Below are positions 4,981 to 50,689 of a DNA stretch of 64,000 bases, piece by piece (position 1 is the stretch's first letter; each line of letters starts with the position of its first letter). The position numbers and the translations under genes are program-made. The DNA is from Halalkalicoccus sp. CGA53. GTDB taxonomy: Archaea; Halobacteriota; Halobacteria; Halobacteriales; Halalkalicoccaceae. Under the pieces are notes generated by a model. It was not told the DNA's origin and did no database searches. It worked only from the letters and a program-made list of their open reading frames with translations. Location of the stretch: positions 620,001 to 684,000 of the forward strand of contig NZ_CP144125.1 of NCBI RefSeq assembly GCF_036429475.1, in the 5' to 3' direction.

Positions 4981-5028
4981 GACTTCTTATGCGAGGACGC
5001 GCCCAGCGAGAGCGTGCCGCCCCACGCG

Positions 5029-5682
5029 ATGAGCGACCTCGCGATCGCCACCTACTGCCCGCGTAAGCTCTACTACACCTGGCAGGCCGACGATCGAACG
5101 GTGCCCGAGTCGGTACGAGAGCGCCGGGACCTCGCCTTCCGATATGACGAGTTGCTCGCGGCCGAGGAGAGCGCGCTCGCCGCCGAACCGATCGCCGTCT
5201 CGCCCGAAGCGTACCGGGCGAACGTAGAACGGAGCGCTGGGACGATCGACCGCTTCGACGACCTCGTGAACCCCGATGCGCGCGACGTATTGCTGACCGG
5301 TCGGGAGTGCCGTGGGATCGTCCACAAGGTCCTAGACGAGCCACCGGAGCCGTCGATGATATCGACCGGCAGCCCCCCGCGGCAGGGCGTCTGGGAGCCC
5401 GACTCGGTTCGTGCGGTCGCGGCGGCGAAGGCGCTCGCCTGGACTCGCGAGTTCCCGGTCGAACGGGCGTACGTCGAGTACCCCACGCACGGTGTGATCC
5501 GATCCGTCGAGATCACGACCCGGCGGAAGGCGACCTACCGACGGGCGGTTCGTACGACCGAGGCGATCGACGGTCCGCCGCCGCGGCTGCGCGGGAAGGC
5601 GAAGTGTCGGTCCTGTGAGTTCCGCGACCGTTGCGGGGTGCGGAGCCGGTCACTTCGATCGCTGCTCTTCGGCGCGAGGTGA
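5029..5682 (+). CDS. Stand-alone Cas4-like (Dna2/Cas4 superfamily) protein
   Basis: This 217-residue protein has the cysteine layout of Cas4 nucleases: Cys10 in YCPRKLYY and a C-terminal C-x2-C-x5-C (193, 196, 202), which together usually hold a 4Fe-4S cluster. Between them the family normally has a PD-(D/E)xK nuclease core with Asp and E-x-K. I find RGIVHKVLDEP and VEITTRRK but no convincing D...ExK set, so activity is doubtful. No CRISPR array or other cas gene lies nearby. An in-frame GTG at 5014 is an alternative start, and a TTCTTAT box at 4984-4990 would make it leaderless. A repeated 106-bp element begins just after the stop. Confidence 0.75.
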   Translation: MSDLAIATYCPRKLYYTWQADDRTVPESVRERRDLAFRYDELLAAEESALAAEPIAVSPEAYRANVERSAGTIDRFDDLVNPDARDVLLTGRECRGIVHKVLDEPPEPSMISTGSPPRQGVWEPDSVRAVAAAKALAWTREFPVERAYVEYPTHGVIRSVEITTRRKATYRRAVRTTEAIDGPPPRLRGKAKCRSCEFRDRCGVRSRSLRSLLFGAR

Positions 5683-5683
5683 T

Positions 5684-5789
5684 ACTCGTAGGGATCATCG
5701 TAGGAGCACATCGTTTCACGGCTGCGAATCGAACGACACCGGTGATCTGACGCCCCCAGGAACGATCAGCTACGATGATCCCTATCAGT
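5684..5789. repeat. 106-bp palindrome-ended repeat, copy 1
   Basis: The element fills the space between the convergent Cas4-like and sua5 genes. Its left end ACTCGTAGGGATCATCGTAG (5684-5703) is the inverted complement of the right end (5770-5789) at 18 of 20 positions. A second copy of equal length lies at 49410-49515: the first 20 bases are identical, about the first 69 are roughly 90% identical, and the right half is diverged apart from the terminus. The right end contains the sua5 stop codon (5785-5787). It could be a MITE-like mobile element, a bidirectional 3'-end/terminator structure, or a small RNA gene. Confidence 0.8.
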
Positions 5790-6366
5790 GGTCGGCGAGC
5801 CACTGCTCTACCTCGTCAGCGATCTCCCCCTGCCGGTGGATCTCCCCCATCTCGACGTCGACGACCGTACTCTCAGTTCCCGCCAGGGTTCCGCCGTCGA
5901 GGACGACCTCGCTTCGCTCCCGGATCGTCGGATCGAGGTCCTCTGCGCGCCTGGCGTTCGCCCCCCCGCTCCGGTTCGCGCTCGTCGCAGTGATCGGCGC
6001 GACCTCGGCGAGCAACGCCAGGGCGACCGGGTGGTCGGGAATCCGGATCCCGACCCGGTCGCGCCCGCCGGTGAGTTCGTCGGGTAGCTCGGGACCACGC
6101 TCGACGACGACCGTGACCGGTCCGGGGAGAAAGCGCTCTACGAACGCGCGCTCGCGTTCGGTGAGCCTCGTGTACTCTCTCGCTGTCTCTCCGTCCGGTA
6201 CCGCCATCGAGAGCGGTCGACCCCGCGCCCTCCCCTTCGCCTCGAAGGCCCGCTCGATCGCCGCGGGCGAGAGCGCGTCCGCTGCGAGCCCGTAGACCGT
6301 CTCGGTCGGGTAGACGACGAGGGCGCCCGACCGGATCGCGGCCGCGGCCCGCTCGATCGAGTTCAT
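5785..6366 (-). CDS. Threonylcarbamoyl-AMP synthase (Sua5/YrdC/TsaC)
   Basis: This is a 193-residue YrdC-domain protein. It makes L-threonylcarbamoyladenylate from Thr, bicarbonate and ATP, the first step of the t6A37 modification of ANN-decoding tRNAs. Visible family motifs are the N-terminal ALVVYPTETVYGLAADA, the KGRARGRPL nucleotide-binding segment, and SANRSGG near residue 140. It lacks the extra C-terminal Sua5 domain, so it is the short TsaC-like form. The start MNSIERA (6366) fits the family; upstream codons do not. It lies downstream of the peroxiredoxin and glutaredoxin genes on the same strand. KEOPS, which completes t6A, is represented by cgi121 at 33 kb. Confidence 0.93.
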   Translation of the reverse strand: MNSIERAAAAIRSGALVVYPTETVYGLAADALSPAAIERAFEAKGRARGRPLSMAVPDGETAREYTRLTERERAFVERFLPGPVTVVVERGPELPDELTGGRDRVGIRIPDHPVALALLAEVAPITATSANRSGGANARRAEDLDPTIRERSEVVLDGGTLAGTESTVVDVEMGEIHRQGEIADEVEQWLADH

Positions 6367-44201: not shown

Positions 44202-44296
44202 ACCGTCCCTACCTCGCTTCGGTCGAAAACGCTGTCGATGGGGGCCACCCGGCGTGAAGGGAACCGTACTTCCCGGGCCTCCCCGAACCCCAGGTG

Positions 44297-45517
44297 ATGA
44301 GCGTCACCACCGACCGCGACACCCTCGGCCGATACTCGCTGGTGGCGCTCGGCGGCGGGGGCTACTGCTGTCTGATGTTCGTCTGGTTCTCGCTCCCGGC
44401 GTACCTCGCACCCGTGATCGACGAACTCGGTCTCACGAGCACCCAGGCGGGCGTGCTCGTCGGCGCGATCCCGCTCACCTACATCCCACTGGGGCTGGCG
44501 AGCGGCTACCTCGTCGATCGGGTCGGCCCGCGGATCGCGCTCGCCCTCGCGCTCGTGATCGTCGGTAGCTCCCAGCTCCTCCGGGCGGTCGCGGAGGGCT
44601 TTCCCTCACTCCTGCTCGCGACGATGCTGATCGGCGTCGGCGGCACGGGAATCACCTTCGGACTGCCGAAACTCGCCGCCGACCTCGTCCCTGCCGAGAG
44701 AGTGGGTACCGCTTCCACGATCTACCTCGTCCCCTCGTACCTCGGGACCGCCGCCGCGTTCGGTCTCGGTCGGCCGGTGATCGGGCCGTTCCTCGGCGGG
44801 TGGCGCCCGCTGTTCCTCGCGAGCGGGCTCTTCGTTCTCGTCTACGCCTGTCTCTGGGCGCTCGCCGCGATCGTCGCTGGGAGGGGCGGCGTGGCGGAGC
44901 CGAGGACCGAGCCCGGGGACGGGAGTTCCCGAACGTTCCGCGACGACCTCGGTGCCGTGATCGGCAGCCGCGCGATGTGGCTGCTCGTCGTGATCGGGAC
45001 GATGTACCTCTTCACGCTCCACGGACTGCAGGGCTGGCTCGTCACGATCCTCGAAGCAGGGGGGAGTTCGCCCGCCGTCGCGGGGACGATCGCGAGCCTG
45101 CTCGTCGTCGCCCAGATCGCGGGCGTACTCGCCATCCCGCCCCTCTCCGATCGGTACGATCGCAGACACGAAGCCGTGGTCGCCTGCGGGGTACTCTGTA
45201 TCCTCGGTCCACTCGGCCTCCTCCTGGTCGTGGGTGGCGGCTGGTTCGCCCTCCTCCCCGTGGCGCTGATCGGGCTCGGTGTCGGCGGGCTCTCGCCGCT
45301 CGTCCGGGCACTCCCGGTCGAACTGGAGGGGATCGGCCCGCGACTCACCGGGACCGCCGTCGGCCTCGTCTTCGCCGTCGGAGAGATCGGCGGCTTCCTC
45401 GGGCCCGTGATCGTCGGCGTGCTCAACGACCTCACTGGCTCGTTCGTCCCGGGGATCGCGCTGTTCGCCTGCTGTGGGGTGATCGTCGTGCTCGCGGGAT
45501 ACGCGCTCGACGTCTGA
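44297..45517 (+). CDS. Major facilitator superfamily transporter
   Basis: This 406-residue protein has twelve transmembrane helices. Loop 2-3 contains GYLVDRVGPRIALA, and helix 5 has VPSYLGTAAAFGLG. It is less similar to the two MFS proteins at 34 and 40 kb. The substrate is unknown. I chose the ATG at 44297; a GTG one codon upstream is equivalent. It converges with a decayed oxidoreductase gene. Confidence 0.87.
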   Translation: MSVTTDRDTLGRYSLVALGGGGYCCLMFVWFSLPAYLAPVIDELGLTSTQAGVLVGAIPLTYIPLGLASGYLVDRVGPRIALALALVIVGSSQLLRAVAEGFPSLLLATMLIGVGGTGITFGLPKLAADLVPAERVGTASTIYLVPSYLGTAAAFGLGRPVIGPFLGGWRPLFLASGLFVLVYACLWALAAIVAGRGGVAEPRTEPGDGSSRTFRDDLGAVIGSRAMWLLVVIGTMYLFTLHGLQGWLVTILEAGGSSPAVAGTIASLLVVAQIAGVLAIPPLSDRYDRRHEAVVACGVLCILGPLGLLLVVGGGWFALLPVALIGLGVGGLSPLVRALPVELEGIGPRLTGTAVGLVFAVGEIGGFLGPVIVGVLNDLTGSFVPGIALFACCGVIVVLAGYALDV

Positions 45518-48673: not shown

Positions 48674-48724
48674 AAGAGAGGGGCACGCCGAGGAGTGAAG
48701 GAGCTCGCGGGCCTCCGTTCGCGC

Positions 48725-49384
48725 ATGCACGTGGGAGTCATCTCCGATATTCACGCGAACCGGATCGCTCTGGAGAGCGTCCTCGCCGACATGCCCGCGG
48801 TCGACCTGTTCGTCTGTGCGGGCGACGTCGTCGGCTACAACCCCTGGCCGGCCGAGTGCGTCGCGGAGATCCGATCCCGGGAGGTGCCGACCGTGCTGGG
48901 CAACCACGACCGGGCGGTGGTCGAGGGGAGCGGGTTCTGGGGCAACGAGATGGCCGACGCCGGCGTGCAGTACGCGATCGAACGGCTGAACGAACGTGAG
49001 AAAGAGTGGCTCGCCGGGCTTCCCGAGACCCGAGCGGTCGCGGACGGACGGATCGGGCTCGTCCACGGCCACCCCGACGACCCGGACTGCTACACCTACC
49101 CCGAGTCGTTCTCGGCCTCGATGCTCGGCGAGGAGGAGCTGCTCGTCCTCGGCCACACCCACGTCCAGGGTCATCGGGTCTACGACGAGGGGATCGTCTG
49201 CAACCCCGGGAGCGTCGGTCAGCCCCGGGACGGCGATCCGCGGGCGGCGTACGCTATCGTCGACCTCGACACGAAGGATGTCGAGGAACGTCGCGTCGAG
49301 TACGACGTCGACGCGGTCGTGGAGGCGATCGAGGAGGCGAGACTTCCGAAACGGACCGGCGAGCGGCTCTACCGGGGGAAGTGA
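48725..49384 (+). CDS. Metallophosphoesterase (calcineurin-like)
   Basis: This is a 219-residue two-metal phosphoesterase with all motifs: DIHANR (residues 8-13), GDVVGYN, GNHDRAV, a His in LVHGHPDD, and GHTHVQGH. It resembles the YfcE/MJ0936-type phosphodiesterase subfamily. The substrate is unknown, perhaps cyclic nucleotides or nucleotide derivatives. The start MHVGVISDIHANR at 48725 is fixed by the fold. The repeated 106-bp element starts 25 bases after its stop. Confidence 0.9.
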   Translation: MHVGVISDIHANRIALESVLADMPAVDLFVCAGDVVGYNPWPAECVAEIRSREVPTVLGNHDRAVVEGSGFWGNEMADAGVQYAIERLNEREKEWLAGLPETRAVADGRIGLVHGHPDDPDCYTYPESFSASMLGEEELLVLGHTHVQGHRVYDEGIVCNPGSVGQPRDGDPRAAYAIVDLDTKDVEERRVEYDVDAVVEAIEEARLPKRTGERLYRGK

Positions 49385-49409: not shown

Positions 49410-49515
49410 ACTCGTAGGGATCATCGTAGAAACACATCGTTTCTCGGCTGCGAAACGAACGACACCGGTGATCTGTCCGCCTGAGAGGGCGATTGGTACG
49501 ATGAGCGCTATCAGA
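49410..49515. repeat. 106-bp palindrome-ended repeat, copy 2
   Basis: The length equals the copy at 5684-5789, and the left terminus (49410-49429) is identical to it. Internally TCGTTTC and GAAACGA (49437-49443, 49452-49458) form a perfect 7-bp hairpin with an 8-base loop. The first copy has one mismatch in this stem. The right terminus is more decayed (TACGATGA then CTATCA conserved) and includes the aspartate kinase stop codon (49511-49513). It lies, as before, between convergent genes. Confidence 0.78.
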
Positions 49516-50689
49516 ACGCGTCCTGGATGATCGAGAGGGCGTCCTCGCGATCGCGCCAGTCGACGAAGATGGCGACGCTCGTCGCGCTCGTGATCACGTC
49601 GTGGATCGTGATGTGGGCGTCGGCAAGCGGGTCGACGATCCCCCGAATGACGCCCGGCTGGTTCGGGAGCTCCCCCCCGGTAACCCGGACGACCGCTATC
49701 CCGTCCTCGAGCGTGACGCTCGAGAGCGACTCGTCGGCGACCACCGAGTCGTGGAGCACCGCTTCCGCGTGTTCTGCCCGGTCCTCGTCGACGTAGAACG
49801 TGACCGAGTCCATCCCGCTCGCGACCGCGTCGATGTTGATCTCGCTGTCGGCGAGCGCGGTCGAGAGCGCCGCGAGGATCCCGAACCGGTTCCTGATCGC
49901 CCGACCCGCGACGGTGATACAGGCGAGAGGCTGTTCGCGCATGTCGATCAGGTTCCGGAACTCGCCCTCGATGCTCGTCCCTCCGGTGAGGAGGTCGCCG
50001 TGCTGGTAGTGGACGACGCGGACGTCCATCCGGCCGTCCTTGTAGCCGAGCGCGGAGGGCGCGACGACCTCCGCTCCCCGGAACGAGAGGCTCCGGAGTT
50101 CGTCGACCGATATCTCCCCGACGTTCCTGGCACCCTCGACCACCGAGGGATCACCGGTCATCACGCCCTCGACGTCGGTGACGATCACGACCTGATCGGC
50201 GTCCATGTACTGGCCGAGCATCACCGCGGTGGTGTCGCTCCCGCCGCGGCCGAGCGTCGTGACGGTCCCGTCTCTCGTCTCGGCGAGGAACCCCGTGATC
50301 ACCGGGACGACCTCGTCGAGTCGCGCCGCGAGCGCCTCGGCGCGCCGGGTGGTCTCCTCGACGTCGACCTCGCCGTGGTCGTCGGTGACCACCGGCCAGT
50401 CCGGGTGGCCCGGCTCGACGAAGACCGCATCGATCCCCCGGGCGGCGAGCGCCGCCTTCAGCATCCGGACCGACGTCCGCTCGCCCATGCTCACGATCTC
50501 CGCACGGTCGGTGTCCGCCGCGTCGAACGTGATCTCCGAGAGGAGGTCGTCGGTCGTCGAGCCCATCGCGCTCGCGACGACCGCTATCTCGTGACCCTCC
50601 TCGGAGGCGGCGGCGACCGAATCCGCCGCCCGATCGATCCGATCGCCGCTCCCGAGGCTCGTCCCGCCGAACTTCGCTACGACCCGCAT
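49511..50689 (-). CDS. lysC: Aspartate kinase
   Basis: This is a 392-residue enzyme catalysing the first step of the aspartate pathway (Thr, Met, Lys). The N-terminal kinase motif is VAKFGGTSLG, followed by a conserved LGRGGSDTTAVMLG and VTDVEGVMTGDP. Two ACT domains fill the C-terminus (ITVAGRAIRNRFGILAALS, VVRVTGGELPNQPGVIRG) and probably bind an inhibitory amino acid. The ATG at 50689 fits; a GGTTATTTAGC promoter-like stretch lies about 55 bases upstream. The 3' end is inside the repeat element. Confidence 0.94.
   Translation of the reverse strand: MRVVAKFGGTSLGSGDRIDRAADSVAAASEEGHEIAVVASAMGSTTDDLLSEITFDAADTDRAEIVSMGERTSVRMLKAALAARGIDAVFVEPGHPDWPVVTDDHGEVDVEETTRRAEALAARLDEVVPVITGFLAETRDGTVTTLGRGGSDTTAVMLGQYMDADQVVIVTDVEGVMTGDPSVVEGARNVGEISVDELRSLSFRGAEVVAPSALGYKDGRMDVRVVHYQHGDLLTGGTSIEGEFRNLIDMREQPLACITVAGRAIRNRFGILAALSTALADSEINIDAVASGMDSVTFYVDEDRAEHAEAVLHDSVVADESLSSVTLEDGIAVVRVTGGELPNQPGVIRGIVDPLADAHITIHDVITSATSVAIFVDWRDREDALSIIQDAF

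Follow-up and report, generated by a model that had tools for sequence, protein, structure and literature searches.

A short haloarchaeal MITE that duplicates a 3-bp target, frequently the TGA stop codon of a neighbouring gene

We found that two 106-bp repeats in a 64,000-nucleotide stretch of the Halalkalicoccus sp. CGA53 genome (hereafter the window) belong to a dispersed family of short elements with inverted ends, and we hold, with a probability of about 93%, that the family is a non-autonomous MITE of 96–101 bp that would be moved in trans by a DDE transposase into the target (A)C-T[C/G]A-G(T), duplicating the central 3 bp and reaching stop codons by way of non-coding C-TGA-G sites. The window carries the following features (TIR, terminal inverted repeat; TSD, target-site duplication).

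5014..5682, + strand: Cas4-like gene (weak PF01930 match, below cut-off), ending 6 bp ahead of the copy 1 element
5686..5688, no strand: left TSD of copy 1, decayed (TCG)
5689..5784, + strand: MITE copy 1, element proper, 96 bp (TIRs and boundaries from a 40-copy alignment and TSD analysis)
5689..5703, + strand: left TIR of copy 1, TAGGGATCATCGTAG
5770..5784, - strand: right TIR of copy 1, CTACGATGATCCCTA
5785..5787, - strand: right TSD of copy 1, TCA, the TGA stop codon of sua5
5785..6366, - strand: Sua5/YciO/YrdC gene (PF01300), its stop being the TSD of copy 1
45515..45517, + strand: empty target, the TGA stop of an MFS-transporter-like gene (44294-45517); a MITE copy duplicates the TGA at the matching site of a congener MAG (G001, C353)
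48695..49384, + strand: metallophosphoesterase gene (PF12850), upstream of copy 2
49412..49414, no strand: left TSD of copy 2, decayed (TCG)
49415..49510, + strand: MITE copy 2, 96 bp, right end decayed
49415..49429, + strand: left TIR of copy 2
49496..49510, - strand: right TIR of copy 2, decayed (3 mismatches)
49511..49513, - strand: right TSD of copy 2, TCA, the TGA stop codon of the aspartate kinase gene
49511..50689, - strand: aspartate kinase gene (PF00696 and ACT), its stop being the TSD of copy 2

Consistent with an earlier note on this DNA, the repeats at 5684-5789 and 49410-49515 are each 106 bp long and start with 20 identical bases, the ends of copy 1 are inverted repeats at 18 of 20 positions (14 of 20 in copy 2), and both copies follow the stop of a rightward gene (ending at 5682 and 49384) and overlap that of a leftward gene, the TCA at 5785-5787 for sua5 and the TCA at 49511-49513 for the aspartate kinase. 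The length given there needs correction, however: the mobile unit in both copies is 96 bp (5689-5784 and 49415-49510) plus a 3-bp TSD, and the outermost TCG and TCA of the 106-bp repeats are duplicated target lying outside the element proper. The left part is indeed conserved between the two copies (63 of the initial 69 bases identical, against 21 of the final 37), but an unconserved right half is not a trait of the element; in an alignment of 39 copies (mean column identity 82%) the two TIRs are conserved alike, so the divergence on the right of the window pair is due to the decay of single copies.

Querying the genome itself with the DNA of copy 1 at E<1e-4 returned at least 40 copies (best non-self E 1e-24), on both the 3.76-Mb and the 280-kb contig, well above what chance would give. 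Matches to the TIR with three or fewer mismatches numbered 129, compared to 4 for a reversed control pattern. The unit consists of TAGGGATCATCGTAG...CTACGATGATCCCTA with 15-bp TIRs and a 3-bp TSD, contains no transposase gene, and measures 96–101 bp in nearly all of 114 copies (98–101 bp outside the window).

Identical 3-bp flanks were present on the left and right of 23 of 40 copies, a number reached in 0 of 10,000 shuffles, and all 23 pairs are TCA/TCA or TGA/TGA, mostly with C before and G after. In the congener (MAG Halococcaceae CSSed162cmB_235), the 3-bp flanks are identical in 39 of 41 copies and the 15-bp TIRs are mostly perfect, which points to recent activity. The same MAG supplied two orthologous comparisons. 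At C2:2801389 the Halalkalicoccus genome reads GAGATC-TGA-GTTCTCC, the TGA being the stop of the gene at C2:2800693-2801391, and the MAG (C276), 91% identical in its surroundings, reads GAGATC-TGA-[101 bp]-TGA-GTTCTCC; the second empty site is the TGA at 45515-45517 of the window, filled at C353 of the MAG. Because filled and empty sites differ by the element and one TGA, insertion with a 3-bp duplication is established. The family is thus dispersed, multi-copy and present or absent at orthologous sites, and the TSDs, empty sites and recent activity uphold the MITE interpretation that the earlier note had offered. In another genome, MAG B79T1B8, some copies (e.g., C111:1082, C126:959 and C2:3649) have CTA/TAG flanks compatible with a 2-bp TA duplication in CTAG, and others have TSA or AST 3-bp duplications; from these flanks, the duplication length may vary with the target.

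Copies with both TIRs occur well beyond this genus, as a search of other haloarchaea revealed: the pattern was found in 70 stretches of a species-level genome collection, all from Halobacteria or from MAGs titled Halococcaceae, Haloarculaceae, Natronomonas or Euryarchaeota, and including Natrarchaeobius, Salinadaptatus, Natronosalvus, Natronolimnohabitans, Halapricum, Halorussus, Natronorubrum and Halalkalirubrum. Equal layout and length with a TSD were seen in Natrarchaeobius, Salinadaptatus, Natronolimnohabitans, Halorussus, Natronomonas and others; viral contigs held no copy with both TIRs. Subfamilies have unlike interiors and near-equal length (98–101 bp), and have in common the TIR and two motifs, a left one close to NAGTTCATAG and a right one close to CCGGTTGG.

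The duplicated triplet is the neighbour's TGA stop in about 23 of 39 copies in this genome, with the element in either orientation. After empty sites had been restored for 87 copies from seven genomes, 46 insertions lay at stops, 36 were intergenic and 5 fell inside called genes, coding insertions being scarce. Stops make up 46 of the 82 non-coding insertions, as compared to 19.0 expected from TSA sites alone (with every non-coding TSA site of these loci as the reference) and 31.8 expected from target context (sites weighted by the flanking preference learned from non-stop insertions), an excess over the latter of 1.45-fold that is provisional because the genes were called with a dicodon caller written for this analysis, by which short genes were perhaps missed or overcalled. 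The stop-codon overlap follows from the C-TSA-G target, because an element that lands in a TGA stop doubles it and leaves the gene intact. We thus conclude, provisionally, that the target motif and the loss of coding insertions explain most of the stop-codon pattern, with the 1.45-fold excess remaining; a stronger claim of stop-codon targeting was weakened once target context was modelled. In mechanistic terms, a DDE transposase, most likely IS630-like, would cut and paste the MITE in trans into (A)C-T[C/G]A-G(T), and the central 3 bp are duplicated on insertion. Coding sequence is intolerant of insertion, and in this compact GC-rich genome a large part of the C-TGA-G sites that are left are stop codons; insertion at one yields TGA-TAGGG..., the gene retains its own stop, and the second copy of the TSD is free to decay, TCG being found in both window copies. 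In a few copies (L012, L021) the end of the gene has moved into the element, CGA replacing TGA and the element's TAG following. At L037:3075-3581 a reading frame enters the MITE, which supplies the final residues and stop of a gene that, by our reading, is probably cupin-like.

Whether stop placement is purely passive, owing only to the target motif and to lost coding insertions, is a sub-question within the MITE reading, and we place it slightly short of even odds: 32 of the 46 stop insertions are expected from target context by itself and the non-stop insertions have much the same ACTSAG context, whereas 46 or more stops arose in 0 of 20,000 context-weighted draws for all copies and in 1–2% for single genomes, figures to which the gene-call caveat applies. 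One might go further and imagine a transposon lineage whose C-TGA-G preference and stop-codon-length duplication are tuned to stops as a safe haven, with a retention benefit from tidying 3' ends, spread across haloarchaea at a nearly fixed length of ~99 bp and moved by an IS630-like transposase that makes a 3-bp rather than a TA duplication, a proposal that we consider unlikely. The earlier note favoured a bidirectional 3'-end structure or small RNA, in which the 15-bp TIR stem, present in RNA from either strand, would terminate transcription, stabilise the 3' end of the mRNA or act as an sRNA, a function that would place and keep the repeat behind stops. The TIR does form a strong hairpin, 46 of 82 copies abut a stop at 1.45 times the context expectation, and divergent (promoter) gaps look under-represented (raw counts 3/40 vs 121/515). 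Stops are also more frequent in species with older-looking copies than among recent ones (29/41 vs 14/35, P=0.01), a trend confounded by the way copies were sampled, but this apparent retention could come from age and gene-call biases, and very recent copies are already at stops. Moreover, the two orientations of the element with respect to the gene are equally frequent (10 left, 10 right), interiors are unlike between subfamilies, there is neither a U-tract nor a terminator-like site, and Rfam gave no match. TIR pairing lacked covariation above shuffles when pairs with double changes were counted, and we rejected an RNA-structure reading, the consensus fold being the TIR stem only; a sigma-70/terminator scan, a method not suited to archaea, returned nothing. 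Position exactly between convergent genes, true of the two window copies, does not hold for the family: convergent gaps contain 15 of 40 copies in this genome vs 26% of background sites, an enrichment that is not significant (P=0.34, test on the 13/39 count), and convergent-gene specificity was likewise rejected. The constant position once taken as a sign of a 3'-end role is largely explained by target sequence and TSD. A 3'-end element is, in our judgement, very improbable; gene-end placement is mainly a consequence of target and duplication, a 3'-end role, for which the retention trend would speak, may have been acquired later, and we infer that most copies have no host function.

As to the enzyme that would move the MITE, IS630-like elements of ~1072 bp encode HTH_33/HTH_32 and DDE_3 proteins in two overlapping frames. 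One in G029 (C6) has the TIR TAGGGATTAGC and the TSD TTG; another in Natronorubrum halalkaliphilum (G103, C15) has the TIR TAGGGATCAGC, the TSD TGA and GTTCATA at positions 18–24; and a related one in G004 has the TIR TACTSACGGC and the TSD TGA. The likeness of the first two to the MITE takes in the outer 9 bp of the TIR (TAGGGATYA) and, for G103, the GTTCATA at 18–24, with the middle differing, and all three autonomous elements have a 3-bp TSD (TGA or TTG), as the MITE does (TSA). The ends of the MITE thus bear a good but incomplete resemblance to those of insertion sequences in other haloarchaea, limited to the outer 9 bp and positions 18–24. On these grounds the MITE is most likely mobilised by an IS630-like DDE transposase. 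We found no autonomous partner with the full 15-bp MITE TIR: in four other genomes, paired exact TIRs were ~100 bp apart, this genome had no autonomous copy with the same TIR among the matches listed, unpaired TIRs in three other genomes were mostly decayed MITEs, and a scan of 1.26 Mb for long inverted TIR pairs turned up nothing beyond passenger cassettes and a nested element.

Alternatively, the MITE could be mobilised by a transposase of the IS5 superfamily, subgroups of which make TNA, ANT or TA duplications. We saw duplications of TSA and AST and perhaps of TA within CTAG (CTA/TAG flanks in some relatives), and described IS630/Tc1/mariner elements duplicate TA (PMC2170065), a rule from which the 3-bp TSD departs, for which reason we write of an IS630-like transposase and not of an IS630 member. 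However, no IS5-like element with these TIRs was met in a search that was not aimed at IS5 transposases, and three DDE_3 elements share the TSD length, two of them also the outer TIR, so an IS5 origin seems doubtful. Proteins of ~146 aa that match the IS630-like transposase over its HTH N-terminal half only, the DDE half being absent, are encoded at G000 C2:2269065-2269478 (L202) and have homologues in most genomes of that family; they are possibly domesticated TIR-binding proteins or repressors.

The MITE is an ordinary kind of object in a widespread and, by present comparison, new version, and would make a new MITE superfamily. The TIR sequence had no description in the literature searched (ISfinder and subscription journals were outside its scope), and publications dealing with haloarchaeal MITEs, with IS630 and with insertion at stop codons gave no match for the family. 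The MITEs of Haloquadratum walsbyi and the SMR-A repeats (~110 bp) are similarly short, non-coding and haloarchaeal, with prominent TIRs and tens of copies per genome, and the former match a transposon in end sequence and TSD type (PMC3119063). SMR-A repeats, however, have no target duplication and prefer IS605/PATE palindromes (PMC3119063), whereas the present element has a 3-bp TSD at C-TSA-G sites or stops and about half of its copies lie at gene ends, and we rejected membership in SMR-A. It could yet prove identical with one of the HqIRS elements. The related autonomous elements resemble IS630/Tc1/mariner (e.g., ISY100, PMC2170065) in their HTH_33/HTH_32 and DDE_3 proteins and length of about 1.07 kb, and differ in that they duplicate 3 bp (TGA, TTG) and not TA, which remains part of the element as its end. 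RU-type small mobile sequences (PMC2229807, PMC2759123) are also MITE-like intergenic repeats of 100–170 bp, sometimes within genes, but come from enterobacteria, and the portions of those reports considered here describe no stop-codon placement with a 3-bp TSD. The MITE accounts for a class of small haloarchaeal intergenic repeats that might easily be taken for terminators or small RNAs, suggests a simple and harmless entry to compact genomes by a transposon that duplicates the stop codon at its landing site, and points to a testable IS630-like group with a non-canonical 3-bp duplication.

It also points to gene mobilisation by MITE pairs in archaea. The unit at C2:386918-388006, a TauE/SafE gene (PF01925) between two inverted copies, recurs on C1 with 98% identity over 1040 bp, the homology beginning exactly at the first base of the element (TAGGG) and the second MITE copy being truncated there; the pair, its two copies moving jointly, carried the passenger gene to another place. 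Mobile insertion cassettes, known from bacterial IS work, are likewise transposase-less units between TIRs with passenger genes, but the TauE unit has a complete MITE copy, and not a simple TIR, at either end. A 1023-bp cassette at G000 C1:25885-26907 (L190), without transposase, has perfect 20-bp TIRs (TAGGGATTAGCAAAAGAAGT), CTA/TAG flanks and a SAM methyltransferase gene, and by its structure appears to be a mobile insertion cassette. The similar cassette of ~1045 bp at G065 C3:15855 (L192) has imperfect TIRs (TAGGGATCAGC / TAGGAATTAGC), CTA/TAG flanks and a 219-aa protein that looks TMEM175-like. A second MITE-like family of ~80 bp, with the TIR TACGGACTGCTGTAA, is inserted into a copy of the stop-codon MITE at G000 C2:2863008-2863187; the reverse nesting is seen in the congener MAG (C382, 1260), and double elements of 181–183 bp occur in Salinadaptatus as well.
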